This document shows, in pieces, positions 37,027 to 63,347 of a stretch of 64,000 bases of DNA. Source of the stretch: Streptomyces venezuelae (GTDB lineage Bacteria; Actinomycetota; Actinomycetes; Streptomycetales; Streptomycetaceae). Both the position numbers and the translations under genes were made by a program. A model generated the notes under the pieces. It made no database searches and was not told the DNA's origin. It saw only the letters and a list, made by a program, of their open reading frames with translations. Within the stretch, counting starts at the first letter, position 1, and each line of letters starts with the position of its first letter. The stretch covers positions 496,001 through 560,000 of the forward strand of contig NZ_CP029193.1 in the NCBI RefSeq assembly GCF_008642355.1. Reading direction: 5' to 3'.

Positions 37027-37234
37027 ATGAAGCTCGTCGCCCTCCGCGCAATAGTGCCCGGGCACGATGGCGAGGTTTTATAGAAGCCGGGCGACGCAAC
37101 CCGACATGATGCCCACGGTGCCGAAAGGCATAGCCAGGTGGGCATACCCGTACTTCCCGTGGAATACCGATGCGGATTTCCATAGACTCGTTACCCGACC
37201 CTCACGGAAATACCGACTCCTGGGCAGGTGTACC

Positions 37235-37612
37235 TTGCTGGTTCGCTCGGTTGAAGATGTCGTCGGAAGCGAATACGACGTGGACTGGGGCAACGGAACG
37301 AGCCGAAGGCTGCTCGTTCAGGCCGATGAATTGGGTTTCAGCCTGACCGAGACGTACGTACAGCCCGGCAGCGAGTCGTACCTCCGGTACGACAACCACC
37401 AAGAGGTCTGCTACTGCGTGTCCGGCGCCGGCTCCGTGGAGACGGCGGACGGCCTGTTCGACATCAAGCCGGGAATGCTGTACGCCCCGGGCATGGGCGA
37501 GCCGCACATACTCCGCTCGGAACACGGCATGACGCTGATGTGCGTCTTCTCTCCGGCCCTGCAAGGGCCGGAGAAGCATCTGCTCACTCCCGGTGTGCAT
37601 TCGAGCTACTAG
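37235..37612 (+). CDS. Ectoine-synthase-like cupin (predicted glutamine cyclase to 5-aminodihydropyrrole carboxylate)
   Basis: A 125-residue EctC-like cupin. The TTG at 37235 (reading MLVRSVEDVVGSEYDVDWGNG) is chosen because true EctC proteins begin exactly there (about 130 residues); the open frame extends to 37067, but that part has non-coding base composition. Conserved EctC blocks: GNGTSRRLLVQADELGFSLTET, YDNHQEVCYCVSGAGSVE and the C-terminal CVFSPALQGPE. No ectA or ectB is nearby. EctC is known to cyclise glutamine to a five-ring cyclic amidine, so in a pyrrolamide cluster it plausibly makes the head group. It heads a two-gene unit with the ATP-grasp gene. Confidence 0.85.
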   Translation: MLVRSVEDVVGSEYDVDWGNGTSRRLLVQADELGFSLTETYVQPGSESYLRYDNHQEVCYCVSGAGSVETADGLFDIKPGMLYAPGMGEPHILRSEHGMTLMCVFSPALQGPEKHLLTPGVHSSY

Positions 37613-37650
37613 GGGCCGTTGAGAGCCGCTGGGAAAGAAGGCAGGAAAGC

Positions 37651-38994
37651 ATGCCCGACACCATTGATCTGGTGGTCCCGAACGTCGTCGAGTTCAACCT
37701 GAAACGCGAACTGCTGGATTTCGACCCGGGTGTGGAAAACGACCTCGTCGAGCACGGCACGGGATACACCGATCAGTGTGTGTTCTGGAGTGCCGGGGAC
37801 CGCGTGCTCGTGCTGCCCGCCGGCTACTCCCAGGAGTGGCTGACGCACGTCCACGCCGGTCTCGGCAGTTCCGTGCCTGACGTCATATCCCCGTTGCCGC
37901 GCACCGGCCGTCTGATCCGCGACCTGCTCGACGACGACCGGGCGCTGGCCGCCCTCGCCGCCGCGACCGACGGGGTGCGGGAGGTGCGGCTCCTGTCCTT
38001 CGGCGCGTCGCCGGACCTGTACTCCCTCGCCTCCGTGCTCCGCAGTCAGGGGCGGGAGGTGCGCCTGGACGTGGCGGGACCGGAGCACTACTGGTCGTAC
38101 GAGTACCTGGAATCCAAGCTGTGCTGTGTCGACCTCGCCTCGCACATCCCCGGATTCCGCGTGCCGCGCGGCATCTCCGTCACCAGCTGGGAACAGCTCA
38201 AGGGCGCGGTCACCACGATCGTGGGCAACGGCGGTCGCGCCGTGGTCAAGAGCATGTACGGAGTGGGGGGTTACGGCTCCGCCGTCGCGCGGGGCGATGC
38301 CGACGGCACCGTACGGCGCTTCTGGCAGACCCTGCGCCGCGAGCCGTTCTTCGGCACGTTCCCGCTCACCGTGCAGGACTACATCGCGCACGGCACCGAC
38401 TGCCCCGCCGTGGACGTCCTCGTCGACGAGGGCGCGGTGCCGCGCATGGAGTACAGCATGCTCGGCGTCGACGGACTGCGGTACCGCAGCCTCGCACTCG
38501 GGCCCGGAGTCCTCGACCCGGACCTCGAGGAACGGCTCGCCGCGCTCGGCACCGCCGTCCACACGTTCGCGCAATCCCTCGGCTACCGGGGCTGGATGAC
38601 GGTCGACTGCCTCCGCGGCCTCGATGACGCGCTCTACGTCACCGAGATCAACGCCCGGCGCTCCGGCGCCATGCACGCCGTCGCCCTCGCGGAACGGTGG
38701 GCCGACGAGGTGCCGGTCGCGTACGTCAACGACGCGCTGCCCTTGCGACTGTCGGGCCCGGTGTCCTACGAGGAGCACATCCGGCCCGTCTTCGACGAAC
38801 TGTGGGCGCGCGGCGTCCGTGCCTACCCGTCGACCGTCCGCGCCCTCACGGGACACCGGCCCTCGCTGGGCATCGTCGTGTGCGCCAGGAGCGCGGCGGA
38901 CGGCGAACGCATCGCCACGGAGGCACACCGGGCCGTCAACGCCGCGGTCACCGCGGCCGGTGCCGGTCAGAAGAGGGCGGCCGCAGTGGGGTGA
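37651..38994 (+). CDS. ATP-grasp ligase (predicted head-group amide ligase)
   Basis: A 447-residue ATP-grasp enzyme with a pre-ATP-grasp N-terminal domain (VLPAGYSQEWLTHVHAGLG near 50-70). ATP-grasp signals: KSMYGVGGYGSAVARG near 205-220, the adenine lid region FPLTVQDYIAHGTDCPAVDVLVDEG near 240-265, and the metal-binding DALYVTEINARRSGAMH near 325-340. ATG at 37651 has CAGGAAAG upstream; it follows the cupin by 38 bases. An ATP-grasp ligase is reported to take part in anthelvencin assembly, joining the cyclic-amidine acid to carrier-bound aminopyrrole. The same role is inferred here. Confidence 0.85.
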   Translation: MPDTIDLVVPNVVEFNLKRELLDFDPGVENDLVEHGTGYTDQCVFWSAGDRVLVLPAGYSQEWLTHVHAGLGSSVPDVISPLPRTGRLIRDLLDDDRALAALAAATDGVREVRLLSFGASPDLYSLASVLRSQGREVRLDVAGPEHYWSYEYLESKLCCVDLASHIPGFRVPRGISVTSWEQLKGAVTTIVGNGGRAVVKSMYGVGGYGSAVARGDADGTVRRFWQTLRREPFFGTFPLTVQDYIAHGTDCPAVDVLVDEGAVPRMEYSMLGVDGLRYRSLALGPGVLDPDLEERLAALGTAVHTFAQSLGYRGWMTVDCLRGLDDALYVTEINARRSGAMHAVALAERWADEVPVAYVNDALPLRLSGPVSYEEHIRPVFDELWARGVRAYPSTVRALTGHRPSLGIVVCARSAADGERIATEAHRAVNAAVTAAGAGQKRAAAVG

Positions 38995-39010
38995 CCTTCT
39001 GCCGCCAGCA

Positions 39011-39062
39011 CGGGAAAGGGCGTCGGGCCGGGGCGGTTGCCCCGGCCCGACGCCCTTTCCCG
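39011..39062. terminator. Perfect 24-bp bidirectional terminator hairpin
   Basis: Bases 39011-39034 and 39039-39062 are perfect reverse complements with a GGTT loop. The hairpin sits 16 bases after the ATP-grasp stop and 16 bases beyond the carrier-protein stop of the opposing operon. It would end both converging transcripts. Confidence 0.92.
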
Positions 39063-39078: not shown

Positions 39079-39420
39079 TCACACGTGCGTGGAGTTCGCC
39101 GCACTCGGCGTGCCGCAGCCCTTCTCCGCGAGGAACTCCGCCTGTGTCATCGGCGTCGCGTTCTCGAAGAGGCGGTTGAGGAGTTCGCCCTCCCACTCCA
39201 CCGCTTCCACCTCGTCGACCCCGTACTCCGCCAGGATCCTCCCGATGGCCTGCAGCGCGAGGAGCGAATAGCCGCCCATCTCGAAGAAGTCGCTGTGGTG
39301 GACGTCGACGGAGTCGGGGCTCACCTCCAGGACCTGCGCCCAGATCCTGCGCACCACTTCCGCCGCCGCTTCCGCGTCGCCCGACGTGGACGGGGACTGA
39401 GCGGCCAGGTTGTCCGTCAC
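39079..39420 (-). CDS. Stand-alone peptidyl carrier protein
   Basis: A 113-residue free carrier protein. The phosphopantetheine site is Ser52 in DFFEMGGYSLLALQ, within a normal four-helix carrier fold (VVRRIWAQVLEVSPDSVDV before it). GTG at 39420 chosen because GGAGG lies five bases upstream. It is the last gene of the long minus-strand run, separated from the dehydrogenase gene by about 90 bases with its own ribosome site, so it may be made in excess. In pyrrolamide clusters one such protein carries the aminopyrrole thioester for all extension steps. Confidence 0.9.
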   Translation of the reverse strand: MTDNLAAQSPSTSGDAEAAAEVVRRIWAQVLEVSPDSVDVHHSDFFEMGGYSLLALQAIGRILAEYGVDEVEAVEWEGELLNRLFENATPMTQAEFLAEKGCGTPSAANSTHV

Positions 39421-39509: not shown

Positions 39510-40556
39510 TCATGGGATCAGCACCACCTTGCTGGCTTCGCCCGCGTCGAAGAGCCGGAAGCCCTCGGCGGCCTCCGACAGCGGCATCCGGTGCGAGATG
39601 AGGTACGTCGGGTCGACGCGGCCACCGCGCACCAGGTTCATCAGGGGCTCGAAGTCGCCGACGGGGTCGCCGACCGCGAAGCGCAGCGTGACCTCCTTGG
39701 CGAACGCGAGCCGGGTCGGCATGGGCATGGCGTCGGAGGCGTGGGCGCCCACGGCGCAGACCGTCCCGCGCGGGCGCACGACGTTCAGCGCGGTCAGCAG
39801 CGACGCGTCGGTGCCCACGGCCTCCAGGACGGCGTCCGCGCCACGTCCCTCGGTCAGGTCGGCGACCTGCCGTGCCACGTCGGGCGCCGCCGGCACCGGG
39901 TACGCGCCCCGTTCGGCGGCCAGTTTCCGCCGGCTCTCCAGCGGGTCGACGGCGAGCACCCTGGCGGCACCGAGCAGCCAGGCGACCTCCAGGGCCAGCA
40001 GGCCCACGGGCCCGCAGCCGACCACCGCCACCGTGTCCCCGGGACGCACCCCGGCGCCCACGGCGCACGCGTACCCGGTGGCGAGGACGTCGCCGACGAA
40101 CAGCGCCCGCTCGTCGCCGACGTCGTCGGGGATCGGGAACAGCACGGTGTCGGCGAACGGCACCCGCACGAACTCGGCGTGCCCGCCCGCGTAGGCCCGC
40201 GTGCCCACCACGGTCGCATAGCCGAACAGGCCCACCCGGTCGCACTGGTAGTGCCAGCCGTGGCGGCAGGACCGGCAGTGCCCGCACGCGATGATGTCCG
40301 AGGCGACGACCCGGTCACCGGCGCGGAGGCCGCGTACCTCGGGGCCGGTCTCCTCGACCACGCCGGTGAACTCGTGGCCCGTGACCGTTCCCGCCGGGAA
40401 GCCGTCGATCTCGCCGCGGTACGGGTGGAGGTCGGTGCCGCAGATCGCGCTGCGCACGACCCGGACGACGGCGTCCCGGGGCTCCTCGACACGGGGCATG
40501 GCGACGTCGTCCGCGACCTCCGCGCGGCGTGTGCCGTGCCATCGCAGCGCTCTCAT
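39510..40556 (-). CDS. Zinc-dependent alcohol dehydrogenase (pyrrole-pathway dehydrogenase)
   Basis: A 348-residue medium-chain dehydrogenase. Catalytic zinc ligands: Cys in SAICGTDLH near 39 and His-Glu in TGHEFTGVVEE near 61. Structural zinc: four Cys in CGHCRSCRHGWHYQC near 90-104. NAD(P) Rossmann motif: VVGCGPVGLLALEVA near 170. ATG at 40556 overlaps the condensation-gene stop. Pyrrolamide clusters carry one such enzyme, thought to act on a sugar-derived intermediate of acetamidopyrrole carboxylate; the exact step here is inferred. Confidence 0.9.
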   Translation of the reverse strand: MRALRWHGTRRAEVADDVAMPRVEEPRDAVVRVVRSAICGTDLHPYRGEIDGFPAGTVTGHEFTGVVEETGPEVRGLRAGDRVVASDIIACGHCRSCRHGWHYQCDRVGLFGYATVVGTRAYAGGHAEFVRVPFADTVLFPIPDDVGDERALFVGDVLATGYACAVGAGVRPGDTVAVVGCGPVGLLALEVAWLLGAARVLAVDPLESRRKLAAERGAYPVPAAPDVARQVADLTEGRGADAVLEAVGTDASLLTALNVVRPRGTVCAVGAHASDAMPMPTRLAFAKEVTLRFAVGDPVGDFEPLMNLVRGGRVDPTYLISHRMPLSEAAEGFRLFDAGEASKVVLIP

Positions 40557-41887
40557 GCGTCCTCCAGTTCACGGCAGCCTGCGTCGAGCTCCTCGTGCAG
40601 GTCGTCGAGGAGGCGTGCGGCGGCCTTGTCGTCGTACTGGGCCGGGTCGTATGCCAGCAGGACGCGCAGTGCGCCCGCCTCCTCGAAGAAGCCGAGGTCC
40701 AAGGGGTGCGCCGAGAAGGGGTCGTGGTTGATGGGCGTCGTGTCGAGGCCTTCGAGGGCGGGCGGCACCTCCGGTGCGGTCTGGAAGGTGACGCAGGCGC
40801 CGATCACCGGCCGGAAGCCGGGCCGCCACAGCCCGAGGACCTGCACGAGCCGCTCGAACGGCATGTCACGGTGGGTGTAGGCGCCGATCAGGTTCCGGCG
40901 GACCCGGTGCAGCAGGTCGCGGAAGTCCGCGTCCGCGGCCACGTGGGTCCGTACCGGCAGCAGGTTCACGAAGAGGCCGACGGCCTTCTCGAACTCGGCG
41001 CTGCTGCGGAATCCGCCGCGCGTGCCCACGAGGATGTCGTCGGTGTCGACATGGCGACGCAGCATGCGCTTGGAGGCGGCGAGCAGCAGCATGAAGAGGG
41101 AGACGTGCTCACGCCGTGCGGTCGCTTGCAGCCGGTCGTACAGGGGCTGGGGAACGGCCGTCCACTGGGTGCGCGAGGGTTCTTCGGCCTCCGGAGGCGC
41201 CGAGGGAGGCCCCGAGGGGGATGCCGGAGGAGATGCCAGGGTGAGCGGAGGCAAGGGGGACGCGGTCGCCAGCACCTCCTTCCAGTAGGCGAGTTGTTTC
41301 GCACCGGCCGGACCGTCGAGCCACTCATGCTGCCGTCGCGCGAAGTCCCCGTACTGGGCGGGCACCGGCGGGAGGGGCGAGGGGCGCCCGTGCAGGTGTG
41401 CGGTGTAGAGCTGCTCCAGTTCCCGGAGGATCACCACCCACCACGACCAGGCGTCGGAGACCAGGTGGTGCGAGGAGACGCGGAGGATGTGCTCGCGCGG
41501 CCCGAGGCCGAGCAGCGCCGCCCGCACCACGGGCCCGCGGACCAGGTCGAAGGGGCGCCGCAGGTCCTCCGCCAGGAACCGTGCCGCCGCCGCCTCGCGT
41601 TCCGCCTCGGGGAGCGCGGTGAGATCCGTCAGGGGCAGCGGCACCTCGACCCGTGGGACCACGCGCTGGACGGGGAGGCCGGCCACGACGGGGAAGCAGG
41701 TGCGCAGCGCCTCGTGCCGGTCGACGACGTCCTCGATGGCCGCCCGCAGGGCCGCCGCGTCGAGGTCGCCGACGAGACGGAAGGTCACGGCGACGGTGTG
41801 GCGGGCGTGTCCGGCGCGGCGCTCCAGGAACCACATGCCCTGCTGGGCGTACGAGAGCGGGGCGTCGCCGCGCGGGGCGGTACTCAT
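40553..41887 (-). CDS. Stand-alone NRPS condensation protein (first copy)
   Basis: A 444-residue free condensation domain forming an amide bond between carrier-bound and free or bound units. The core motif is H140-H141-L-V-S-D145-A146, i.e. HHxxxD with the usual Gly replaced by Ala. Other C-domain marks: APLSYAQQGMWFLER at the start, RHEALRTCF near 58, and VGLFVNLLPVR near 300. A Pro/Ser/Glu-rich loop (about 205-230) is an unusual insertion. ATG at 41887 overlaps the methyltransferase stop; a GTG four codons earlier is less likely. It is coupled to the dehydrogenase downstream. Confidence 0.9.
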   Translation of the reverse strand: MSTAPRGDAPLSYAQQGMWFLERRAGHARHTVAVTFRLVGDLDAAALRAAIEDVVDRHEALRTCFPVVAGLPVQRVVPRVEVPLPLTDLTALPEAEREAAAARFLAEDLRRPFDLVRGPVVRAALLGLGPREHILRVSSHHLVSDAWSWWVVILRELEQLYTAHLHGRPSPLPPVPAQYGDFARRQHEWLDGPAGAKQLAYWKEVLATASPLPPLTLASPPASPSGPPSAPPEAEEPSRTQWTAVPQPLYDRLQATARREHVSLFMLLLAASKRMLRRHVDTDDILVGTRGGFRSSAEFEKAVGLFVNLLPVRTHVAADADFRDLLHRVRRNLIGAYTHRDMPFERLVQVLGLWRPGFRPVIGACVTFQTAPEVPPALEGLDTTPINHDPFSAHPLDLGFFEEAGALRVLLAYDPAQYDDKAAARLLDDLHEELDAGCRELEDA

Positions 41888-42690
41888 TTGACGCCCCACG
41901 TGAACAGCCAGCGCCGGGGCACCCCGCTCAGTTCCAGTTCCTCGAAGGTGGTGCGCAGGCCCCGGATCAGCGCGTCGGAGCCGAGGGCGAGGTCACTGAT
42001 GCCGGTGGCCCCCTCGATGAACACCGAGTACGCGCAGAGCGCCTCCCAGTCTGCGAGCGTCCACGTGTACTCGGCCTCCTCGGACTTGGTCTGGGAGAAC
42101 CCCGCGTCGGCGAAGAGGTCTTCGTGCTGTCGCGGTGTGAGCGTCTGCATCGCCACGGGCCGCTCGCGCACGAGGACGAGGTCCGTGCCGCGGTCCCGCA
42201 GGACGGCGCGGGTGGCGCGCAGCCAGTGGGTGTAGAAGGGCCGGGTCCCGGGGAGCACGGCCCCCTCGTAGAAGAGGGTGTTCAGGGCGCAGCGTCCGCC
42301 CGGGGCGAGGAGGCGGTGACACCCGGCGAGCACCGCGCCGCGCTCGTCGGCCGGGATCTGGTGCATGACGTTGCTCAGGACGGCGACGTCCACCGGTCCG
42401 GTCAGGGACTCGACGTCCTGGGCGCGCCCTTGCACGAAGCGCACCTTGGGGTCGGTCAACCGGGCTCGCGCGATGGTGAGTTCGTGTTCCGACGGGTCGA
42501 TGCCGATGATGGAGCCGACGTGCGCGGAGCGTTCCAGGAGGAGTTCGGTGGCGAGGCCCGAGCCGCATCCGACGTCGGCGACGACGCCGCCCTCCGGGGC
42601 TTCGCAGATGTCGACCAGACGCTGGGTGACGTCGCCGTACAGGGGGCGGCGCGACATCGCGTCGAACTCGTATCCGTGGACGAAGGTCAT
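41884..42690 (-). CDS. Class I SAM-dependent methyltransferase
   Basis: A 268-residue methyltransferase. Motif I VVADVGCGSGLATELL lies near residues 35-50, the acidic residue after beta-2 is in IIGIDPSEHEL, and motif IV VDVAVLSNVMHQIP is near 100. The C-terminal half (YTWTLADWEALCAYSVFIEGATG) probably forms the substrate lid. In pyrrolamide clusters a methyltransferase of this kind N-methylates pyrrole rings, and that role is proposed here. It starts 11 bases after the amidohydrolase stop, and its stop overlaps the condensation start. Confidence 0.87.
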   Translation of the reverse strand: MTFVHGYEFDAMSRRPLYGDVTQRLVDICEAPEGGVVADVGCGSGLATELLLERSAHVGSIIGIDPSEHELTIARARLTDPKVRFVQGRAQDVESLTGPVDVAVLSNVMHQIPADERGAVLAGCHRLLAPGGRCALNTLFYEGAVLPGTRPFYTHWLRATRAVLRDRGTDLVLVRERPVAMQTLTPRQHEDLFADAGFSQTKSEEAEYTWTLADWEALCAYSVFIEGATGISDLALGSDALIRGLRTTFEELELSGVPRRWLFTWGVK

Positions 42691-42701: not shown

Positions 42702-43604
42702 TCATCGGTGGGGTGGGGGGACCGGAGCAGCGTGCGGTGCGGTGGGGGCGAGCAGCCGCGCCGCCGTGCCGCCCATGAGGTCCTCGTACTCACGCGGTGA
42801 GAGCGGGTCGCTGCCGTCGGGCCACGGCCCGGGGTCGCGGGCCAGTTCCGCCGTGCGGGCCACGGACCCGGTCATGGACGCGAAGGGGAAGTCGGTGCCC
42901 CACAGGAGCCGGTCGAGGACGCCGCGGTCGCGGGCGTGGGCCAGGGCCCTGGCCACGACGGCGGGCGGCTGGTAGGAGCCGAAGATGGACAGGTCCGCGT
43001 AGAGGTCCGGGTGTCGGGCGAGCAGTTCGACGCAGGGGCCGGTCCAAGGGGTGCCGAGGTGGGCCAGGATCACCTTCAGGCCGGGGAAGTCCTTGGCCAC
43101 CTGTTCGACGAGGAGCGGGGAGAAGAAGCGGGGGGCCGCGTTGCGGGAGGGCGTGTAGCCGGTGTGGATCAGGACGGGGATGTCCAGTTCCGCGGCGGTC
43201 TCGTAGACGTCGTACCACCGGCGGTCGGCGGGTGACATGCGCAGGTAGCAGGGGGCTGTCTTCAGTCCGCGCAGGCCCAGATCGGTGACGGCCTCGCGCA
43301 GGCGCTCCGCCGCGCCGGGGGTGCCCGCGTCCACGGAGGCGAAGCCCGTCAGGCGGTCGGGGTGGCGGGCGCACAGGTCGGCGACGAACTCGTTCGGCAC
43401 CGAGAACCCCTCGACGCGCCGCACGTCGAAGGCGAGCAGGAAGACGCGGTCGACGCCCGCGGCGTCCATCTCGGCGAGCAGCTTGGCCTCGGGCGCGGTG
43501 AGGTCCTCGGGCGCCAGGTCGGTGGTGGCCGTCATCTGTTCGGCGAAGCGGGCCGTGTAGTGGCGGTAGTACTCCCCCGCGTGCACGTGGGCGTCGATGA
43601 TCAC
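42702..43604 (-). CDS. Amidohydrolase-2 family TIM-barrel hydrolase (predicted pyrrole deacylase)
   Basis: A 300-residue metal-dependent hydrolase. Metal ligands by motif: H-x-H in IIDAHVHAGEYY (residues 5 and 7), His in IPVLIHTGYTPS near 140, His in VILAHLGTPWTG near 173, and catalytic Asp in LLWGTDFPF near 235. GTG at 43604 overlaps the glycoside-hydrolase stop (GTGA). In congocidine and distamycin pathways an amidohydrolase removes the N-acetyl or formyl group from the pyrrole amine before the next condensation; this is the likely equivalent. Confidence 0.86.
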   Translation of the reverse strand: MIIDAHVHAGEYYRHYTARFAEQMTATTDLAPEDLTAPEAKLLAEMDAAGVDRVFLLAFDVRRVEGFSVPNEFVADLCARHPDRLTGFASVDAGTPGAAERLREAVTDLGLRGLKTAPCYLRMSPADRRWYDVYETAAELDIPVLIHTGYTPSRNAAPRFFSPLLVEQVAKDFPGLKVILAHLGTPWTGPCVELLARHPDLYADLSIFGSYQPPAVVARALAHARDRGVLDRLLWGTDFPFASMTGSVARTAELARDPGPWPDGSDPLSPREYEDLMGGTAARLLAPTAPHAAPVPPPHR

Positions 43605-45487
43605 GGCTGCCGCCCCTCGGGCCGCTGCGGCTCGTCGCCGTGCCAGAACAGCAGGCGTACGTCCTTGGGTTCGAGGTGGAGCGGCTTCTCGCTCTCCGTG
43701 GTGCCGTCCGCCGTGTGGCGCCGCAGGACCGTGTCCACCGGTTCGGGGGCGTGGTTGATGACAACGCCGCAGCGTTCGTCGCCGCGTCCGAGGACCGTGG
43801 TCTCCACCGACGGGTCCTCCGCGGTGAGCGGCGCGCGGACGCCCGCTTGCTCGGCGACCGCTTCGTACAGCCGGTGCCAGTCGGTTTCGTCCAGGCGGTA
43901 GGGGGCGTTGAGCTGCGCCTCCAGGGGGGCGTTGAGGTAGTAGACGCTGCCTTCGCCGAGGCGGTGGCGGGTCAGGGCGGGTGAACCGTCGGCGAACGCG
44001 GCCAGTGTCTCGGCGCCCGCCGTGTCGATCACCGGGATCGGGCCCGTGTCCCAGCGCAGCGGGAAGCGCGTGCCCGCCCAGGTGAACTCGGCGTGGGTGT
44101 CGTCGGCGCGTGTGAAGTCCCGTACGCGGATGCCGAAGAGGTCCTCGTCGCCGGCGGCGTCGAGGAGGCTGCCGGTGGAGTACAGCAGCACTCCCCCGGC
44201 GCTGACGTACCGGGCCAGGCGGCGGCGGTCCGGCAGCGACAGCGTACGCGCGGAGGGGCAGATCACCAGCGCGTGCCGCTCCAGCTCCGGGTCGCGTCCA
44301 GTGAACTCATAGGGCAGATGGGCCTGTTGAAGGAGGAGGTGGGCGTAGAAGGCGGCGGGTGCGTCGCTGCCCGAGGGCGTCAGGTATCCGGCTTCCTCCT
44401 GCTCCTCGGCCTCGGGGACGAACACGCCCACCGGGGCGGGCAGTGGCCTGAACCCGGCGAGTTCCCCGGTCACGCGCCGGATGAACTCCCGGTACTCGGC
44501 GAGGACGGGCTTCTCGCCGCCGTCCGCGTCCAGGAGGCCGACGCGCCGCTCGTTGGGCCGCAGCGCGTAGGGCTTGCGCTCGGTGGTGAAGTCCTGCCAG
44601 CACCAGACGGCGGTGCCGACGGCACCCGCCGCGAACGCGGAGTGGGAGGCGGCCCGCAGGTACCGCGCGGCGGTGGTCCCGTCGCAGCCGTAGCTGCCCA
44701 GCTCGTCGACGTAGACCGGCCGGTGGGCGCTGCCCCGCCGCACCAGGTAGGGCACGAAGGCGGTGGCCTTGCGGGCCGCGACGGACTCGACGTGGAACGG
44801 CGTCCACACCGGGAAGCCGTGCAGCCCCACCATGTCGAGGCTGTCGGCGTGCTCGGGGCGGAAGGCGTGGCCGCCGAGGACCGCGGAGGGCTCGTTGGCC
44901 TGGAGGACCAGGGCGTCCGGGTCGGCGTCGCGGATCGACGAGGCGAGCATTCCCCACCACGCGCGCACCTCGTCGGGCCCGAGGGAGGCGGACGACCTGG
45001 AGTCGACGTGGATCACCTCGTCGCCCAGGTCGTACGCGAGGACGTTCGGCTCGTCCCGGAGCTCGGCGGCGATGTGGTGGACGAAGGCGCGTTGCCGCTC
45101 GCGCAGGTCCGGGTCGCGCCACAGGTCGCGGCCGTCGCGCCACGGCAGGTCGAACCGCTGGCCGTTCATCCAGATCGTCAGGAGGGAGGGCAGGCACAGC
45201 AGGCCGTGCCGCCGCGCCGTCCGGACGAGCTCCCGCAGCCGGTCCGTCGCCGTGGAGTCGTAGACGCCTTCCTTGGGTTCGAAGTCGGCCCAGAAGACGA
45301 AGAACCGCACGGTGTTCAGGCCCTCCGCCGCCATCCGCCGGAAGTCGTCGTCGATGCGGTCGCCGTCCCACTCCCGCCAGTACTCGCACCCGGTCGGCGA
45401 GGGGTGATAGTTGACGCCGACACTGACGTACGGGTGCCCGTCCCGGTACAGGGCGCCGTCGGCGAACGTGACGCGCCCGCCGCTCAC
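43601..45487 (-). CDS. Glycoside hydrolase, clan-A (GH5/GH42-like) cytoplasmic enzyme
   Basis: A 628-residue enzyme with no signal peptide. An N-terminal TIM barrel (VSVGVNYHPSPTGCEYWREW, LNTVRFFVFWADFEP) carries a putative acid/base Glu in YDLGDEVIH near 165 and nucleophile in YVDELGSYG near 265. A beta-galactosidase-type trimerisation/flavodoxin-like domain follows (HALVICPSARTLSLPDRRRLARYV). GTG at 45487 overlaps the aminotransferase stop. Intracellular location and operon position suggest it releases a sugar from a biosynthetic intermediate made by the adjacent glycosyltransferase, as proposed for acetamidopyrrole biosynthesis. Confidence 0.83.
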   Translation of the reverse strand: MSGGRVTFADGALYRDGHPYVSVGVNYHPSPTGCEYWREWDGDRIDDDFRRMAAEGLNTVRFFVFWADFEPKEGVYDSTATDRLRELVRTARRHGLLCLPSLLTIWMNGQRFDLPWRDGRDLWRDPDLRERQRAFVHHIAAELRDEPNVLAYDLGDEVIHVDSRSSASLGPDEVRAWWGMLASSIRDADPDALVLQANEPSAVLGGHAFRPEHADSLDMVGLHGFPVWTPFHVESVAARKATAFVPYLVRRGSAHRPVYVDELGSYGCDGTTAARYLRAASHSAFAAGAVGTAVWCWQDFTTERKPYALRPNERRVGLLDADGGEKPVLAEYREFIRRVTGELAGFRPLPAPVGVFVPEAEEQEEAGYLTPSGSDAPAAFYAHLLLQQAHLPYEFTGRDPELERHALVICPSARTLSLPDRRRLARYVSAGGVLLYSTGSLLDAAGDEDLFGIRVRDFTRADDTHAEFTWAGTRFPLRWDTGPIPVIDTAGAETLAAFADGSPALTRHRLGEGSVYYLNAPLEAQLNAPYRLDETDWHRLYEAVAEQAGVRAPLTAEDPSVETTVLGRGDERCGVVINHAPEPVDTVLRRHTADGTTESEKPLHLEPKDVRLLFWHGDEPQRPEGRQP

Positions 45488-46635: not shown

Positions 46636-47396
46636 CCGGATCCCACCTCCTGGAACGCTCCGGTGCCCGCGCCGAGGACGGCCGCCGCGCCGCGGCCCAG
46701 GTAGCGGGCGCGGTCGTTGCGGAAGGCCGCGGCGGCCCGGTTCAGCTGCTCGGGCGTGCCGATGTCGTGCCAGTCCCCTTCGATGACATGGCCCTCGACG
46801 CGTTCGCCCTCGGTGCGGGCGCGGTCGAGGAGGGCGGGCATGTCGTCCCGGACGCGGGGTGTGAGCAGCCGCAGCAGGGACGGTTCGAGTACGTAGATGC
46901 CGGCGTTGACCAGGAAGCTGAGCCGGGGCTTCTCACGGAAGTCGGTCACCTCGCGGTCGTCGTCGAGTTCGACCACGCCGTGCGCGATGTCGATGTACTG
47001 GCGGCTGAGCGCGACGGTCGCGGCGGCCTGCGACTTCTTGTGGCGTGCGATCAGCTCGGCGAAGTCGAGGTCGGTGAGCAGGTCCGCGTTCATCACGAGC
47101 GTGGAGTCCTCGAAGGGCGGCAGCAGCGCGAGCGGGCCCGCCGTGCCCAGCGGCTCCTCCTCCAGGAAGAAGTCCAGTTCGAGGCCGGCCCATTGGTTCC
47201 CGGTGAAGCTCGCCTCGATCATGTGGGCCCGGTGGCCGAGCGAGAGCGACACGTGGGTGAAACCGGCACCGCGCAGCTGCGCCAGGATGATGTGCAGGAT
47301 CGGTGTGCCGTCGATGGGTACGAGGGGTTTGGGGATGGTCAGGGTGTGCGGCCGTAACCTCCGGCCCACGCCACCGGCCAGTACCACTGCTCTCAT
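46632..47396 (-). CDS. Sugar-1-phosphate nucleotidyltransferase
   Basis: A 254-residue enzyme that activates a sugar phosphate to an NDP-sugar. The signature GGVGRRLRPHTLTIPKPLVPI is at residues 8-28, and the metal Asp is in STLVMNADLLTD near 100. The start ATG at 47396 overlaps the glycosyltransferase stop; the longer open frame upstream is the wrong frame for that gene. Leu14, inside the signature, is encoded by TTA (plus-strand TAA at 47355-47357), a bldA-dependent codon in the middle of the biosynthetic operon. Confidence 0.9.
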   Translation of the reverse strand: MRAVVLAGGVGRRLRPHTLTIPKPLVPIDGTPILHIILAQLRGAGFTHVSLSLGHRAHMIEASFTGNQWAGLELDFFLEEEPLGTAGPLALLPPFEDSTLVMNADLLTDLDFAELIARHKKSQAAATVALSRQYIDIAHGVVELDDDREVTDFREKPRLSFLVNAGIYVLEPSLLRLLTPRVRDDMPALLDRARTEGERVEGHVIEGDWHDIGTPEQLNRAAAAFRNDRARYLGRGAAAVLGAGTGAFQEVGSG

Positions 47397-54956: not shown

Positions 54957-56378
54957 TTACGACTCTGTGGCCGCGCCCCTCCCCGCGCCGCCCACCGCGG
55001 CGGCGGGACCGTGCTCTCCCCCGGCGTCCTCGACGTACTCGACGAGCAGGCGCTCGATGTCGTGGAGGAACGCGTGGACCTCGGACGGGGTGAGCGCCCG
55101 GTGGTCGGCGTTGAGGACCACGCGGATCCAGCCGGGAACCTCGTCGTCGACCACGACGAAGAAGGTCTCGCCCTCCTCGAACTCGTCCGGAGCGACGACG
55201 GTGTCGGCCATGGCGGCCCGCGGGCTCTCGCCGGACACGGCACCGTCGCCGTCGGCCGTGTCGGGCAGGGGCTGTTCCTCCCGGATGTCGTTGAAGCAGT
55301 ACGAGAGGTCCACTGGTACGCCGGGTCCGCGGGCGTCGGCGATCAGACGCGCGATGTCGTCGGGGTCGTAGAGGCCGTTCGCGTAGGCGGCGGTGCACGC
55401 GGCGAGGGCGCGGCGTGCGACGTCCTCGGCGCGGTCGCCGTCCAGGGCGATGGTCACCGGCACCTCCGTGTGGAGGTTGGCGACGGTGCCGCGCACATCG
55501 GGGTCCGACCGGTTGGCGGTGAGCAGGCGCAGGGTGCACGACGGCGATCCGGCCCGGCGTCCGAGGAGCCGGGCGACGACGGTCAGCAGCACGACGGACG
55601 TGCTCACCCGCCAGCGCCGGGCCAGGACCGGCACCGCGAGCGCCACGGCACGGGAGCTCATGCCGGCGCTGTACCGGACCGGGGCCGCGGGGCCGCCGCG
55701 GTCCGGGAACAGGGTCGCGGGCGCGCGGTCGAGCTGCCGTTGCCAGTAGGTGCGTGACCGCGCCTGCAGGGCACGGCCGCGCGGGGACTGCTCCAGCTGT
55801 GCCTGCTCGACGGGCTGCCGTGCCGGTGCGGCGGGTGGCAGGGGGCGGCCGGCCGCCCGCGCGTCGAGCAGCCGGGTCAGCTCGTCGGCGAGGAGCCGCA
55901 CCGAGGTGAGGTCCACCGAGAGGTGGGACACACAGAACGCGGCGAGCACGGGAACGCCGTCGACGACGGTCACCATGAACCGGATGAGCGGGGCCCGTGC
56001 GGGGTCGAAGGGGGTGTGCCGCATCCTTCGCTCCCAGGCCCGGCGCACACCGTCGGGGTCTTCGTGTGGGGCGAGCGTCCACACCTCGGCCTCGAACTCG
56101 GCGGCATCCACGACGTGTTGGACGAGGGAGCCATCGGCGTCCCGGTGGAAGGCCGTGCGCAGCGACTCGTGGCGTACGACCAGTTCGCCGCAGACGTCGA
56201 GCAGGTCCTGTGCGGTGCCGTGGCCGGGCAGCGCCACCCAGTAGCACACGTCGTAGAAGGAGGCGTCGGGCAGCTGCCGCTGCATCAGATTCCAGAGGTG
56301 CCGCTGGGCGCAGGTCGCCGGCGCGGTGACCGACCGTCGTCCAGCGAAGGGGATGCGGTGCCGGACGAATTCGGCCAC
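54957..56378 (-). CDS. Stand-alone NRPS condensation protein (second copy, degenerate motif)
   Basis: A 473-residue condensation-domain protein. The HHxxxDG core appears as S151-H152-L-S-V-D156-L157: the second His and the Asp remain, but the first His and Gly are replaced. RHESLRTAFHRD near 69-80 and TANRSDPDVRGTVANLHTEVPV near 320-340 support the fold. GTG at 56378 with AAAGGA eight bases upstream; the open frame to 56549 lacks a site. Two free condensation proteins are a hallmark of pyrrolamide clusters; this one may handle the amidine tail or another special coupling. Confidence 0.85.
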   Translation of the reverse strand: MAEFVRHRIPFAGRRSVTAPATCAQRHLWNLMQRQLPDASFYDVCYWVALPGHGTAQDLLDVCGELVVRHESLRTAFHRDADGSLVQHVVDAAEFEAEVWTLAPHEDPDGVRRAWERRMRHTPFDPARAPLIRFMVTVVDGVPVLAAFCVSHLSVDLTSVRLLADELTRLLDARAAGRPLPPAAPARQPVEQAQLEQSPRGRALQARSRTYWQRQLDRAPATLFPDRGGPAAPVRYSAGMSSRAVALAVPVLARRWRVSTSVVLLTVVARLLGRRAGSPSCTLRLLTANRSDPDVRGTVANLHTEVPVTIALDGDRAEDVARRALAACTAAYANGLYDPDDIARLIADARGPGVPVDLSYCFNDIREEQPLPDTADGDGAVSGESPRAAMADTVVAPDEFEEGETFFVVVDDEVPGWIRVVLNADHRALTPSEVHAFLHDIERLLVEYVEDAGGEHGPAAAVGGAGRGAATES

Positions 56379-56787: not shown

Positions 56788-57465
56788 TCAGGTGATGAGT
56801 CCGTTCTGTATGGCGGTGACCACCGCGGCCGTACGGTTGGGTGCGCCGAGCTTGAGGAGCAGGCTGGCGACGATGCGTTTGACGCCGTGGCTGGAGATGC
56901 CGAGGCGCCGGGCTATCTGTTTGTTGCTCAGCCCTTCGGCGAGCAGCGGCAGCACTTCGTTCTCACGGCCGGTGAGGTTGCCGACGCGCCGCCTGCGCTG
57001 CTGTTCCGGCTCCCGGACGCGCCGCAGAAGCGCCCGGGTGACCGAGGTGGGCATGGGCACCTCGCCGGCCACGATCCCTTGGAGCGCGTCCTCGACCGCG
57101 GTGGCGGTCAACTCGTTCTCGACCAGGAATCCGTCGGGTACCGAGGGACCCGCGAGTATTTCTTCGGGGACCTCGGTGGTGGTGAGCAGAAGGAGAATCT
57201 TCGGGCGGTGCCGTCGGGCGTCCACGAGCACGCCTCGATCCGGGCTGTAGTCCTTCTCGTGCAGGAACAGCACGTCCACTTGGTTGTTGCGTAAGGTTTC
57301 CTCCACCTCGCCCCAGTCGCCGCAGTGTCTGACGTCCCTGACCAGGGGCGCCGTCGACAGCGCGGCCCGCAGCCCGAGCTGCAGGAATCCGTTGCGCACG
57401 AGAGTGGTCACCACGAGCTGCTCTCCTGGGAACGGGGGGTGGCACAGCGCCTGACTCACTCGCAT
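56788..57465 (-). CDS. Atypical LuxR/NarL-type response regulator, probable cluster activator
   Basis: A 225-residue regulator. The C-terminal LuxR helix-turn-helix is complete (LTGRENEVLPLLAEGLSNKQIARRLGISSHGVKRIVASLLLKL). The N-terminal receiver-like domain lacks the normal phosphoryl-acceptor context: the beta-3 strand VDVLFLHEKD has His/Glu where Asp is expected. Start is uncertain: ATG 57465, GTG 57459 (seven bases after GGAGG) or GTG 57414 (seven after AGGAGA). Leu58 is TTA (57292-57294), making it bldA dependent. Congocidine synthesis is governed by a comparable atypical regulator. No sensor kinase is adjacent. Confidence 0.88.
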   Translation of the reverse strand: MRVSQALCHPPFPGEQLVVTTLVRNGFLQLGLRAALSTAPLVRDVRHCGDWGEVEETLRNNQVDVLFLHEKDYSPDRGVLVDARRHRPKILLLLTTTEVPEEILAGPSVPDGFLVENELTATAVEDALQGIVAGEVPMPTSVTRALLRRVREPEQQRRRRVGNLTGRENEVLPLLAEGLSNKQIARRLGISSHGVKRIVASLLLKLGAPNRTAAVVTAIQNGLIT

Positions 57466-58073: not shown

Positions 58074-59912
58074 ATGACCGCCGAGACCATGGCGGGCGCC
58101 ACGGCAGCCGACGACACCGACGACGACGCCGACCGGCGCAGCGTCCCCCGCTGGCTGCTCGCACAGATGCGGCCCTTCAGGCCGTACATCGCCCTGTTCC
58201 TGCTGGGCAGCCTCGCCTGGCAGTCGCTGACCGCGGCGATCCCGCTGGTCACCGGCCTTGCCTTCGACGCCGTCCTCGACCAGGACGACGGATCGCCCGA
58301 CTTCGGCACGTTCCACGCCATCGCCGCCGGCCTGTTCGCGCTCGTGGTCGTCCGCGCGCTGGGCGGCATCATGTCCACGTACAGCCTGGAGTCCTTCGCC
58401 AGTGGGCTCGAGCGCAACGCGCGCGCCCAGGTCTTCGCCAGCCTGCTGCGCAAGAGCCAGGGCTACTTCAACCGGCGGCGCGTCGGCGACCTGTCCGCAC
58501 GGGCCACCGGCGACGCGGAGTCGCTGAACCTGATGGTGTCACCAGGCTTCGACCTGGCCGTCGACCTCGCCCTGAACATCCTGATGCCGATCGTGTTCAT
58601 CGCCCTGGTGGACCCGCGGCTGCTGGTCTCCCCCGTCGTCTTCGTCCTGCTGTTCGCGGTGGCGCTCGCCGAACACGGGCGTCGTCTGGAGCCCGTCTCC
58701 GACACGGCACGCGAGCGCTTCGGCGACATGACTGCCCAGGCGTCGGAGAGCATCGCCGGCATCGAGGTCGTGGGGTCGACCGGCGGTGCCGACCAGGAAC
58801 GCGCCCGCTTCACCGATCTTGCCCGCGCGTACCGGGACGCCTCCGTACGCCAGATCCGCACCCAGGCACTCGCCCTGTCCCCGCTGCTGCTGACCCTCGC
58901 CACCGTCGGCGCCCTGGTGCACTCCGTCATCCTGCTGCGCGACGACTCCCTGAGCATCGGCGAACTCGTCGCCGTCCTGGGACTGATGGGCACCCTGCGC
59001 GCCCCCACCCAGCTGGCGTCCTTCAGCCTCGGGCTCATCTACCTCGGCATGGCGGGAGCGCAGCGCATCAAGGAGGTCGTCGACGACCCCGAGGGCGAGG
59101 ACGAGCGGGGCGGCCGCCACACCGGACCCGTCGTCGGCGAAGTCGCCATGGAGAACGTCACGTTCGGCTACGAACCCGGCAAGCCGGTGCTGCGCGACGT
59201 GTCCTTCCGGGTCGCCCCCGGCACCACCGTGGCCATCGTCGGCGCCACGGGAAGCGGCAAGTCCACCCTCCTGCACCTGCTGAACCGCACCTACATCCCG
59301 GACGAAGGACGCGTCCTCGTCGACGGCGTCCCCACCACGGACTGGGACATCGGGGCGCTCCGCTCGCGCACCTCCGTCATCGAGCAGGACGTGATGCTCT
59401 TCTCCCGCTCCATCGCGGAGAACCTGAGCCTCGGTTCGGACAACGGGACCGACCGCTCCCGCATGGAGGACGCGGCCCGCATCGCGCAGGCACACGACTT
59501 CATCACGGCGGCCGAGAACGGCTACGACACCGTCATCGGCGAACGCGGCGTCACCCTCTCCGGAGGCCAGCGCCAACGCCTCGCCATCGCCCGCGCGTTG
59601 ATCGCCGACCCGCGCATCCTCGCCGTGGACGACGCGACCAGTGCCGTCGACAGCGCCACCGAGTACGAGGTGCAGCGCGCCATGCGGCAGGCCTCGGACG
59701 GACGGACCACGTTCCTCGTCACCCCCAGGCTGTCCCGCATCCGGGCGGCCGACCACATCCTCGTCCTGGACGCCGGCCGGATCGTCGACCAGGGCAGCCA
59801 CGAACAGCTCCTGCGGGACTGTTCCCTGTACCGCAGGATCTTCGCGCCCTATCTGAGCACGCCGGCACCCGGTGGCCCGGACTCCGCGGGCGCCAAGGAG
59901 GAGAGCCACTGA
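58074..59912 (+). CDS. ABC exporter half, degenerate-site subunit
   Basis: A 612-residue type IV ABC exporter half: six membrane helices (residues about 35-310), then a nucleotide-binding domain with Walker A GATGSGKST near 390 and signature LSGGQRQR near 496. Two catalytic positions are altered: after Walker B the Glu is Asp (ILAVDDATSAVD near 518), and the H-loop His is Pro (FLVTPRLSR near 551). ATG at 58074 with AAGGAG five bases upstream. It forms a heterodimer with the next gene product to export the cluster product and give self-resistance. Confidence 0.93.
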   Translation: MTAETMAGATAADDTDDDADRRSVPRWLLAQMRPFRPYIALFLLGSLAWQSLTAAIPLVTGLAFDAVLDQDDGSPDFGTFHAIAAGLFALVVVRALGGIMSTYSLESFASGLERNARAQVFASLLRKSQGYFNRRRVGDLSARATGDAESLNLMVSPGFDLAVDLALNILMPIVFIALVDPRLLVSPVVFVLLFAVALAEHGRRLEPVSDTARERFGDMTAQASESIAGIEVVGSTGGADQERARFTDLARAYRDASVRQIRTQALALSPLLLTLATVGALVHSVILLRDDSLSIGELVAVLGLMGTLRAPTQLASFSLGLIYLGMAGAQRIKEVVDDPEGEDERGGRHTGPVVGEVAMENVTFGYEPGKPVLRDVSFRVAPGTTVAIVGATGSGKSTLLHLLNRTYIPDEGRVLVDGVPTTDWDIGALRSRTSVIEQDVMLFSRSIAENLSLGSDNGTDRSRMEDAARIAQAHDFITAAENGYDTVIGERGVTLSGGQRQRLAIARALIADPRILAVDDATSAVDSATEYEVQRAMRQASDGRTTFLVTPRLSRIRAADHILVLDAGRIVDQGSHEQLLRDCSLYRRIFAPYLSTPAPGGPDSAGAKEESH

Positions 59913-61822
59913 TGGCGCATCTGCTGGAGGGCATCGACCCGGACGACTACGACCGCCGTTACGGCGACCGCGAGCTGGCCCGCCGTATCGCCCCGTACTT
60001 CCGCGGCAAGGGCCGGGCCGTGGTCTTCGTGACCCTCGCCGTGATCATCGCCGCCACGGCGGGCAGCGCCGTGCCGCTGCTCCTGGCGCGGACCGTCGAC
60101 TCGGCCCTGAAGGACGACGGCGACGGCCGTCTCGCGTGGCTGGTCGCTGCCATGCTCGTCGCGGGCATCGCCGCCTGGCTGCTGAACCTCCTTCAGGAGC
60201 GCGCGGCCGGGACCATGGCCGGTGACGTCGTGCTCAAGCTGCGCGAGCGGGCGTTCGCGGCGGCCATGCGCCAGGACATGGCGTTCCACGACGCGCACCC
60301 GACCGGTGTAGTCGTCAGCCGCGTCACCAACGACACCCAGGCCTTCGCGACGCTGATCACCCTGATGCTGAGCCTGCTCGGCCAGGTACTGATGATCGTG
60401 ATCCTGCTGACCGCCCTGTTCGTCATCAACGTGCCGCTGGCCCTCGTGACGGCCTTCGTCGCAGCGGTCATCGTCGCCGTCAGCCTCGCCTTCCGGCGCG
60501 CTGCCCGCAGCGCCTCGCTGCGCCAGCAGGAGGCCCTGGCCGAGGTCAACGGATATGTGCAGGAGACGCTGCGGGGCATCGCCGTGGCGCGCAACCACAG
60601 CCACCAGCAGTCCGCGCAGACCGGCCTCGACGAGGTCAACCACCGGTGGTTCAAGGCCAGCGTCCGGCTGAACCGCCTGTTCAGCGGCATCTTCCCGCTG
60701 CTGATCTCCCTCACGGGACTCGGCACGGTCGCGGTGGTCCTGGTGGGCGGACACGGCGTCGACTCGGGCTCGGTGTCGGCGGGCGAGTGGGTGCTGTTCC
60801 TGGAGGCCCTGGCCCTGTTCTGGTCGCCGCTCACCAGCATCGCGTCCTTCTGGAGTCAGCTCCAGCAGGGTCTGGCCGCGGGCGAGCGGGTCTTCGCCCT
60901 CGTCGACCGCGAGTCGACGGTGCGCCAGCTCGACCGGGTGCCGGTACCGCGCCTGCGCGGCGAGATCACCCTGCGCGACGTCCACTTCGGCTACGACGAC
61001 GAACACCCCGTGCTCAACGGCGTGAGCCTCGACATCCCCGCGGGCCGCACCGTGGCACTGGTCGGCCACACCGGCGCCGGAAAGTCGAGCGTGGTCCGGC
61101 TGATCATGCGCGCGTACGAATTCCAGAAGGGGAGCATCGAGGTCGACGGCCTCGACGTGCGCAGCCTGGACCTGGACCAGTACCGGCGCTGCCTCGGCGT
61201 GGTGACACAGACGCCGTTCCTCTTCTCCGGGACGGTCGCCGACAACATCGCCCGCGGCCGGCCGGGCGCCGGACGCGACGAGATCGAGGCCGCGGCGCGC
61301 GCGGTGGCGGGCGGTGACTGGCTGGAGCAGCTCGCACAGGGCCTGGACACACCCACCGACGAGGGCGGCCGGAATCTGTCGACCGGCCAGCGCCAGATCG
61401 TCGCGCTCGCCCGCGTCTTCCTCCAGGACGCCCCCGTACTGATCCTCGACGAAGCCACCGCCAGCATCGACCCGCTGACGGAGGCCCAGATCCAGGAGGG
61501 CCTTGAGGCACTCGCGGCGGACCGCACGACGATCGTCGTCGCGCACCGCCTGCCCACGGTCCGCAAGGCGGACACGATCGTCGTCGTCGACGAGGGCCGC
61601 ATCATCGAGGAGGGCGATCACGCCACGCTGCTGGCCCGTGGCGGGGCGTACCGGCGCCTCTACGACCGCTACTTCCGCCACCAGCGCCCCGATGAGGACC
61701 CCGCCGAGCCCGTGGAGCCCCGGCCCGTCGCACTCACACCTTTCGCGGGTGCGGTGGCGTCGGCGAACGGACATGCGGACCAGGACGGAGAGGAGAGCGT
61801 GGTCGATGGCCACCGCGTCTGA
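59912..61822 (+). CDS. ABC exporter half, catalytic-site subunit
   Basis: A 636-residue partner exporter half. After six membrane helices the nucleotide-binding domain shows Walker A GHTGAGKSS near 386, a non-canonical signature LSTGQRQ near 489, normal Walker B plus Glu (LILDEATASID near 512) and normal H-loop (VVAHRLPT near 545). The altered signature pairs with the altered Walker B/H-loop of the first subunit, giving one degenerate and one active ATP site. The ATG shares its first base with the previous stop; the C-terminal tail beyond residue 590 is disordered. It overlaps the next gene by 17 bases. Confidence 0.93.
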   Translation: MAHLLEGIDPDDYDRRYGDRELARRIAPYFRGKGRAVVFVTLAVIIAATAGSAVPLLLARTVDSALKDDGDGRLAWLVAAMLVAGIAAWLLNLLQERAAGTMAGDVVLKLRERAFAAAMRQDMAFHDAHPTGVVVSRVTNDTQAFATLITLMLSLLGQVLMIVILLTALFVINVPLALVTAFVAAVIVAVSLAFRRAARSASLRQQEALAEVNGYVQETLRGIAVARNHSHQQSAQTGLDEVNHRWFKASVRLNRLFSGIFPLLISLTGLGTVAVVLVGGHGVDSGSVSAGEWVLFLEALALFWSPLTSIASFWSQLQQGLAAGERVFALVDRESTVRQLDRVPVPRLRGEITLRDVHFGYDDEHPVLNGVSLDIPAGRTVALVGHTGAGKSSVVRLIMRAYEFQKGSIEVDGLDVRSLDLDQYRRCLGVVTQTPFLFSGTVADNIARGRPGAGRDEIEAAARAVAGGDWLEQLAQGLDTPTDEGGRNLSTGQRQIVALARVFLQDAPVLILDEATASIDPLTEAQIQEGLEALAADRTTIVVAHRLPTVRKADTIVVVDEGRIIEEGDHATLLARGGAYRRLYDRYFRHQRPDEDPAEPVEPRPVALTPFAGAVASANGHADQDGEESVVDGHRV

Positions 61823-63347
61823 ACACCAGGCCGACGGACCCGGCCGGCCCGGCCCGACAACCCTCCGGGAACTGCTCGACAGTGCCGCCCGTGCCCGCCC
61901 CCGCGCCGTCGCCGTGCGCGGCGAGGACGCCGTCCTGACCTACGGCGAGCTGCACGAGAGGGTGCGGGCCACCGCGCGGCGCTTCGAGGCGCTCGGCGTC
62001 ACCGGGCGCGGCGCGGCGGGGCTGCTCCTGGAGAACACCCCGGACTCCGTCGTCGCGCTTCTCGCCGCGGCCCGGCTCGGGGTGCGCCTGGTCCCTCTGG
62101 AACCCGGCACCACACGTACACAACTCGGTTCCGTGCGCGAGGCGTTGGGGCCGCTGTCCGTCATGGGCCACACCGCGAGGCTCGCCGCGCTGGAGGGCGC
62201 GGAGGGTCCGGACCCGCTCGACTGCGCGTTCATCCCCATCGAGGACCCGGGCGGCGACACCCCCTCCCGGGTGCCGGAAGGCGACGCGGCCGCCATGCCC
62301 GACGCCCCCTTCCTCCACCAGTACACGTCCGGCTCGACCGGAGAGCCCAAGGTGGCCGTCCACACGCAGCGCAACCTCGTCAACGGCGGTGACATCTACG
62401 CCCGTTCCTACGGGATCACCGAGGACGACCGCATCCTGGCCGCCGTCCCGCTGCTGCACTCCTTCGGCCTGGTGGCCGGACTGGTCACCGCGCTGCGCGC
62501 CGGGGCGGAACTCGTCCTCCTCGGCCGCTTCACCCCCGCACGGCTCCTGCGCGCCCTGGAGGAGCACGCCTGCACGGTCCTGGTCGCCGCCCCCATGGCC
62601 TACGACCTGACGACGCGCGCGGCCGGCGCGAGCCCGTCCGTGCCCCGTGCCCTCCGCCTGTGCCTGTCCTCGGGGGCCGCCCTGCCGCCCGCCGTGGCGC
62701 GGCGGGCCAAGGAGCGGCTCGGTCTGGACATCCAGCAGGTGTACGGCTGCACGGAGGCCGGGGTCATCGCCGCGCGGCGCCCGGAGGACGGCTCGGCCGC
62801 GGACCTCGGTGTGGGCCGCCCCATGCCCGGCGTGCGGATCCGTGTCGTCGACGAGCGGGGCGACGAGGTGGCACGCGGCGAGGAAGGGGCGCTGCTGGTG
62901 CGCACACCCGCGATGTTCACGCACTATCTCGGGCACGCCGACGCCACGCGGGAGGCGTTCGCCGACGGCTGGTACCGGACCGGCGACGTGGCCCGCGTCG
63001 GCCCCGAGGGCCATCTGCACCTGGTCGGGCGCAAGGACTCCTTCATCAACGTGGGCGGCAAGAAGGTGAACCCCCTCGAAGTGGAGCAAGCCCTGCTGGC
63101 CCACCCCTCGGTCGTGGAGGCCGTGGTCTGGGGCGAGACGACCGACGACGGCGGCGAGCGCGTACGGGCGTCCGTGGTGGCGCGGCCTCCGCTGCCCGCG
63201 ACGGAGCTGACGTCCCACTGCCGCGCCCGGCTCCTCCCCCATCAGGTGCCCGCCGAGGTCGACTTCGTCGCCTCGCTGCCGAAGAGCTCGATGGGCAAGA
63301 TCAGACGCGCCGCGGTGCGGACCGCGGCGGCCGTCAGGCGGTCCTAG
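61806..63347 (+). CDS. Free-standing AMP-forming acyl ligase (predicted pyrrole carboxylate activating enzyme)
   Basis: A 513-residue ANL-superfamily enzyme. Motifs: A3 YTSGSTGEPK near 172, A5 QVYGCTEAG near 312, A7-A8 YRTGDVARVGPEGHLHLVGRKDSFINVGGKKVNPLEVE near 393-425, and the A10 lysine in KSSMGKIRR near 498. It looks more like an acyl-CoA/aryl acid ligase than an amino-acid adenylation domain (no amino-acid-type Asp in the usual A4 site). In pyrrolamide clusters such an enzyme activates acetamidopyrrole carboxylate and loads the free carrier protein. Co-translated with the exporter. Confidence 0.88.
   Translation: MATASEHQADGPGRPGPTTLRELLDSAARARPRAVAVRGEDAVLTYGELHERVRATARRFEALGVTGRGAAGLLLENTPDSVVALLAAARLGVRLVPLEPGTTRTQLGSVREALGPLSVMGHTARLAALEGAEGPDPLDCAFIPIEDPGGDTPSRVPEGDAAAMPDAPFLHQYTSGSTGEPKVAVHTQRNLVNGGDIYARSYGITEDDRILAAVPLLHSFGLVAGLVTALRAGAELVLLGRFTPARLLRALEEHACTVLVAAPMAYDLTTRAAGASPSVPRALRLCLSSGAALPPAVARRAKERLGLDIQQVYGCTEAGVIAARRPEDGSAADLGVGRPMPGVRIRVVDERGDEVARGEEGALLVRTPAMFTHYLGHADATREAFADGWYRTGDVARVGPEGHLHLVGRKDSFINVGGKKVNPLEVEQALLAHPSVVEAVVWGETTDDGGERVRASVVARPPLPATELTSHCRARLLPHQVPAEVDFVASLPKSSMGKIRRAAVRTAAAVRRS

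Follow-up and report, generated by a model that had tools for sequence, protein, structure and literature searches.

Gene content and relatives of a pyrrolamide cluster, very probably that of anthelvencin, in Streptomyces venezuelae

In this study, we examined a 64,000-nucleotide stretch of the Streptomyces venezuelae genome (the window; bases 496001-560000 of a single contig of 8,018,484 bp), in which 22 genes at 37235-63347 form a biosynthetic gene cluster. A preliminary description, made by a model from the raw sequence, had picked out the region as a pyrrolamide cluster of the anthelvencin/kikumycin type, and what it picked is a real DNA-binding antibiotic cluster. Every component that it named was found by Pfam: the carrier protein, two condensation proteins, an adenylating enzyme, an amidohydrolase, a methyltransferase, an ABC pair, a LuxR regulator, enzymes like nucleoside deoxyribosyltransferase (NDT), DHOD and creatininase, and a sugar-processing set (nucleotide-sugar dehydrogenase, epimerase, glycosyltransferase, nucleotidyltransferase, aminotransferase and glycoside hydrolase). 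The list omitted an ectoine-synthase-like (EctC-like) gene and an ATP-grasp gene, though both lie inside the region it had marked out; an aldehyde dehydrogenase and an alcohol dehydrogenase, also absent from it, belong to the cluster as well. Percentages below refer to counterparts in Streptomyces atriruber NRRL B-24165 (G081) and in other Streptomyces genomes with pyrrole-cassette clusters.

37235-37612, + strand: EctC-like cupin, 125 amino acids, TTG start; PF06339 (2.9e-33), 41% identity to P. lautus EctC
37651-38994, + strand: predicted ATP-grasp amide ligase; in Pfam a pre-ATP-grasp domain only, just under cutoff; predicted fold ATP-grasp
39079-39420, - strand: free peptidyl carrier protein (PCP); PF00550; 90% in S. 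atriruber, 68-75% in G168 and G150
39510-40556, - strand: zinc alcohol dehydrogenase of the pyrrole cassette; PF08240/PF00107; 70-93% in six other clusters
40553-41887, - strand: free condensation protein C1, motif HHLVSDA; PF00668 (5.1e-78)
41884-42690, - strand: S-adenosylmethionine (SAM) methyltransferase; PF13649; 67-88% in G168, G150 and G081
42702-43604, - strand: amidohydrolase; PF04909; 67-90% in six other clusters
43601-45487, - strand: glycoside-hydrolase-like enzyme of the pyrrole cassette; PF08532/PF01301; 62-87% in six other clusters
45484-46635, - strand: DegT-type sugar aminotransferase; PF01041 (3.1e-107)
46632-47396, - strand: sugar nucleotidyltransferase; PF00483 (5.3e-35); start corrected, most likely at 47396
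47393-48475, - strand: glycosyltransferase-like enzyme; PF00534
48472-49464, - strand: NDP-sugar epimerase/dehydratase; PF01370
49457-50761, - strand: NDP-sugar dehydrogenase; PF03721; TIGR03026 above cutoff
50811-51590, - strand: creatininase-like hydrolase (aminopropionamidine tail); PF02633 (6.6e-55)
51592-52476, - strand: DHOD-like reductase (tail); PF01180
52539-53084, - strand: NDT-like enzyme (tail); PF05014
53081-54547, - strand: aldehyde dehydrogenase; PF00171 (1e-133)
54957-56378, - strand: free condensation protein C2, degenerate motif SHLSVDL; PF00668 (8.2e-22)
56788-57465, - strand: LuxR-type regulator; PF00196; one TTA codon (codon 58)
58074-59912, + strand: ABC half-exporter 1; PF00664/PF00005; Walker B ends Asp-Asp, LSGGQ intact; 90% in S. 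atriruber
59912-61822, + strand: ABC half-exporter 2; PF00664/PF00005; Walker B intact, signature LSTGQ
61806-63347, + strand: free adenylating enzyme, start most likely the ATG at 61806; PF00501 (2.1e-72)

Gene order and protein identity group this cluster with pyrrole-cassette clusters of other genomes, which served in our comparison as substitutes for the named clusters of congocidine, distamycin and anthelvencin. Among 392 Streptomyces genomes, the glycoside hydrolase has orthologue-level matches (at least 63%) in seven, the source genome included; 67 genomes matched at E 1e-20, and 60 of these, at about 27-32%, were set aside. Each of the six others (G081, G150, G168, G043, G053 and G202) holds at least seven genes of the window's pyrrole cassette. 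Matches at 26-43% in these clusters, which involve the C1, C2, PCP, adenylating, ABC and nucleotidyltransferase genes, were left out of the counts of shared genes. All 22 genes have collinear counterparts in S. atriruber, at 76-94%, which excludes a chance assembly of components. Sixteen of the 22 genes, the tail genes among them, are collinear in G168 at 53-76%; the 40 kb read there held no match to five genes (EctC-like, ATP-grasp, LuxR and the two ABC genes) and a match at 31% only to the free adenylating enzyme. The C2 gene of G168 (L060:7064-8034) lies in two pieces in different frames, from a frameshift or a sequencing error. In G150, 15 of the 22 genes, again with the tail genes, are collinear; the contig there is 19.3 kb long and breaks off within the cluster at both ends. 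G043, G053 and G202 have only the pyrrole cassette in common with the window: seven of its genes match at 55-75%, and in G053 the nucleotidyltransferase does so too, at 64%. The 40 kb read in each held no match to the methyltransferase, the aldehyde dehydrogenase or the three aminopropionamidine tail genes. Across the seven clusters the pyrrole genes are constant, the tail and methylation genes come and go, and the head genes appear exchanged for one another. Such constant, variable and exchanged gene sets provide search marks for undescribed minor-groove binders.

We read 37235-63347, for which gene content, gene order, homologies, conserved residues and one predicted fold are shown, as very probably the anthelvencin cluster of S. 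venezuelae ATCC 14583, a known anthelvencin producer. The stand-alone proteins of a pyrrolamide non-ribosomal peptide synthetase (NRPS; PCP, condensation and adenylating) are all present, as are the sugar-to-pyrrole cassette with its amidohydrolase and the complete NDT/DHOD/creatininase tail set. The aminopropionamidine tail, aminopyrrole core and cyclic-amidine head proposed earlier each have matching genes. The EctC-like and ATP-grasp genes mark the anthelvencin/kikumycin branch; the assignment to this type in the preliminary description is supported, although these markers went unnamed there. The anthelvencin cluster of ATCC 14583, including an ATP-grasp ligase, Ant23, was reportedly described by Aubry et al. 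in ACS Chem Biol in 2020. Set beside that cluster as reported, the window has the stand-alone NRPS proteins and the ATP-grasp ligase in common with it, and we know of no difference. The cluster itself has very probably been described before, and our finding is a re-discovery. A study of thirty Streptomyces genomes (PMC7018776) lists S. venezuelae ATCC 14583 under CP029193. The anthelvencin cluster is in print, since anthelvencin A/B/C serves as a reference cluster in a table of a genome paper (PMC11599982). In addition, a passage of a review, citing Lee et al. 2021, mentions a CRISPR deletion of three anthelvencin-cluster genes, and its reference list holds a 2021 paper on S. venezuelae strains by Lee et al. 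(PMC10949845).

Judging from its sequence, the EctC-like protein likely cyclizes glutamine to form the cyclic-amidine head (ADPC). Ectoine synthase is described as converting glutamine to ADPC in a side reaction (PMC6344544, PMC4795551). Like true EctC, the protein has all three iron ligands, and in our alignment 12 of the 13 strictly conserved residues are kept. It differs by the loss of Trp-21, the region of which is gone through a two-residue deletion, by a change of Leu-87 (S. alaskensis numbering) to Pro, and by its location in an antibiotic cluster; a separate, ordinary EctC is encoded elsewhere in the genome, at 1766416. It scores above the Pfam cutoff and below that of NCBIfam (116.9 vs 128). 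The TTG at 37235 is most likely the start, because the longer frame (from 37067) has upstream stops in S. atriruber, the TTG is common to both species with a GGCAGG stretch upstream of it, and the 125-amino-acid form occurs in the protein database. For the ATP-grasp protein, a search of PDB sequences gave nothing better than E 0.29; we therefore predicted its fold, whose neighbors are the ATP-grasp ligases 3wvq, BesA 8yi6 and 8ynd, alike in fold and just 15-18% identical. The protein likely joins the head to 4-aminopyrrole-S-PCP. Among the 392 Streptomyces genomes, 51 matched it at E 1e-3 and three at E < 1e-80: it has one close relative besides itself, at 85% in S. atriruber, and a further one at 38% in G171.

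Combining these assignments with the remaining genes, we infer the substrates, the sequence of the reactions, export and regulation as follows. The sugar cassette would convert an N-acetylhexosamine nucleotide to 4-acetamidopyrrole-2-carboxylate, by the sugar-to-pyrrole chemistry of congocidine. The adenylating enzyme likely loads this acid onto the free PCP; its amine would be unmasked by the amidohydrolase, a likely deacetylase by analogy to Pya25/Cgc14. The EctC-like enzyme would then supply ADPC from glutamine, which the ATP-grasp ligase would join to the carrier-bound aminopyrrole, and C1 would add the second pyrrole. The SAM methyltransferase is likely the pyrrole N-methyltransferase. 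C2 likely releases the chain onto 3-aminopropionamidine; its motif (SHLSVDL in the window, SHLAVDL in G081, SHLAADL in G168) has lost the first His and kept the second His and the Asp in all three. The tail would come from a cytosine nucleotide via the NDT-, DHOD- and creatininase-like enzymes. The two ABC proteins, proposed earlier to form a heterodimeric exporter, are complementary, with an Asp-Asp Walker B and intact LSGGQ in one vs an intact Walker B and LSTGQ in the other, the usual picture of an ABC heterodimer with one weak ATP site; the pair may export the product. The LuxR protein may switch the cluster genes on. It is atypical, as had been proposed, in that the receiver domain PF00072 was not matched at E 0.001.

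How far the genes fix the product, and the place of the head step, has to be weighed against other possibilities. A kikumycin, or an undescribed congener rather than anthelvencins A-C, would be expected to have the same head, core and tail genes, and products are not readable from genes alone. Kikumycin, however, lacks the N-methyl group that anthelvencin carries, so the presence of the methyltransferase, which is collinear with its counterparts in congocidine/distamycin-like clusters (67-84% in G168 and G150), favors anthelvencin. With the source strain also probably being the anthelvencin producer, the kikumycin or congener product is very improbable. That the product is congocidine or distamycin, whose head is guanidinoacetyl or formyl, is scarcely credible, even though the order of 16 of the 22 genes is that of G168. 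Both G168 and G150 have an A-PCP-C protein, which lies between the alcohol dehydrogenase and carrier genes, and a protein of FemX fold; the window has neither. It has just 89 bases between the alcohol dehydrogenase and PCP genes, the EctC-like and ATP-grasp genes stand in place of the missing proteins, and Pfam found no formyltransferase domain among its 22 genes. As published, the clusters for congocidine (S. ambofaciens cgc) and distamycin (S. netropsis pya) resemble the window in a free PCP, two free condensation proteins, the amidohydrolase, the pyrrole core and the aminopropionamidine tail; in the published description Cgc18 carries its own PCP and condensation domain (PMC4047045), and the A-PCP-C protein of G150 and G168 is in keeping with it. 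No such protein occurs among the 22 genes of the window, the sole AMP-binding protein of which is without a PCP or condensation domain; the EctC-like and ATP-grasp genes are found instead.

It is unlikely, though far less so than either other product, that the pathway is right and the head is attached otherwise, with the ATP-grasp enzyme acting on the free aminopyrrole or last on the dipyrrole. Peptide ligases are among its closest folds. Since the cluster has just a single free carrier protein and a single adenylating enzyme, a carrier-bound acceptor is favored, as the abstract of the 2020 anthelvencin paper reportedly proposes. Some observations do weigh against the head assignments within the anthelvencin reading. 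Asn-38 is changed in the genome's ordinary EctC too (to His), and the change at this position therefore tells little about the substrate. The EctC-like and ATP-grasp genes were seen adjoining in two genomes only, the window's and S. atriruber, and among 394 class-level genomes a Nocardia ATP-grasp relative used as query (E 1e-30) matched only the source genome. In a third strain, NPDC026206, the EctC-like and ATP-grasp proteins are each listed on contigs of 310,132 bp.

In all five non-anthelvencin pyrrole clusters compared (G168, G150, G043, G053 and G202), a protein of about 377 amino acids adjoins the sugar dehydrogenase.

L060:11933-13066 (G168): FemX-fold protein, 377 amino acids; orthologues in G150, G043, G053 and G202

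Neither Pfam nor NCBIfam gave a match for it, PDB sequences yielded no hit better than E 0.14, and its fold is that of aminoacyl-tRNA-dependent transferases (MprF, FemX, Sbb17). It was not found in the two anthelvencin-type clusters (window and S. atriruber). We tentatively suggest, as a possible but doubtful explanation, that pyrrolamide-type clusters swap the head step as a unit, with the FemX-fold protein in one type vs an ADPC synthase derived from ectoine synthase and the ATP-grasp ligase in the other. If so, guanidinoacetyl-type heads would start as a glycyl group from tRNA, and a dedicated ADPC-synthase subfamily, recognizable by the signature WGNG, would be a marker for amidine-headed products across Streptomyces, Nocardia and further actinomycetes. 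The titles and abstract openings of 15 of 450 matches in the open-licence literature gave nothing on a head step for congocidine that depends on tRNA, and it may be published elsewhere. Records named for candidate phyla, Nanoarchaeota and Gammaproteobacteria contain relatives of the FemX-fold protein at about 36-53%. The protein is also encoded on a 7,525,322-bp S. venezuelae contig (P0074), so that the strain concerned probably carries a pyrrole cluster of the non-anthelvencin type.

A putative ectoine-synthase subfamily carries the WGNG motif (P0130-P0158) and includes Nocardia iowensis; relatives were cut at E 1e-20 and aligned with one ordinary EctC, the source genome's own. Nocardia also has ATP-grasp relatives at 44-46%. 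A candidate product of these genes would be noformycin, an ADPC amide known from Nocardia. The 38% ATP-grasp relative is found in G171 (L055, L056; a 7.4-Mb contig), where the 40 kb read held no pyrrole-cassette match, and on the linear plasmid NZ_CP107920.1 of Streptomyces sp. NBC_00441 (L073). A plasmid search with the gene gave two records at 38%, and the one read has neighbors like those of G171. The locus is a different oxidative cluster, with PhyH, TauD, haem-oxygenase-like and acyl-CoA dehydrogenase proteins, one free condensation protein and two ABC proteins.

Beside the cluster, at window positions 33610-37026, lie a TetR regulator, an MFS transporter and an FAD monooxygenase, at 82-91% in S. 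atriruber. We left them out, since conservation alone is no argument for membership: the S. atriruber DNA match spans from 32088 to at least 18 kb past the window's right end, and a desaturase gene separates the three genes from the EctC-like gene in S. atriruber. To the left of 32088, the remaining 1.6 kb of the S. atriruber contig held no match. A second pyrrolamide locus in the genome, as in S. netropsis, was considered and rejected: besides themselves, the amidohydrolase gave three weak partial matches (28-36%) and C2 gave six (27-33%), and the glycoside hydrolase (E 1e-20) matched in one place only. A plasmid search with the glycoside hydrolase gave five records, at 25-27% only. The pyrrole-cassette clusters of G043 (L058, L059), G053 (L062, L063) and G202 (L064, L065) hold several larger NRPS proteins, and in each there is a UvrA-like protein of 923-935 amino acids, which suggests self-protection against a DNA-acting product.

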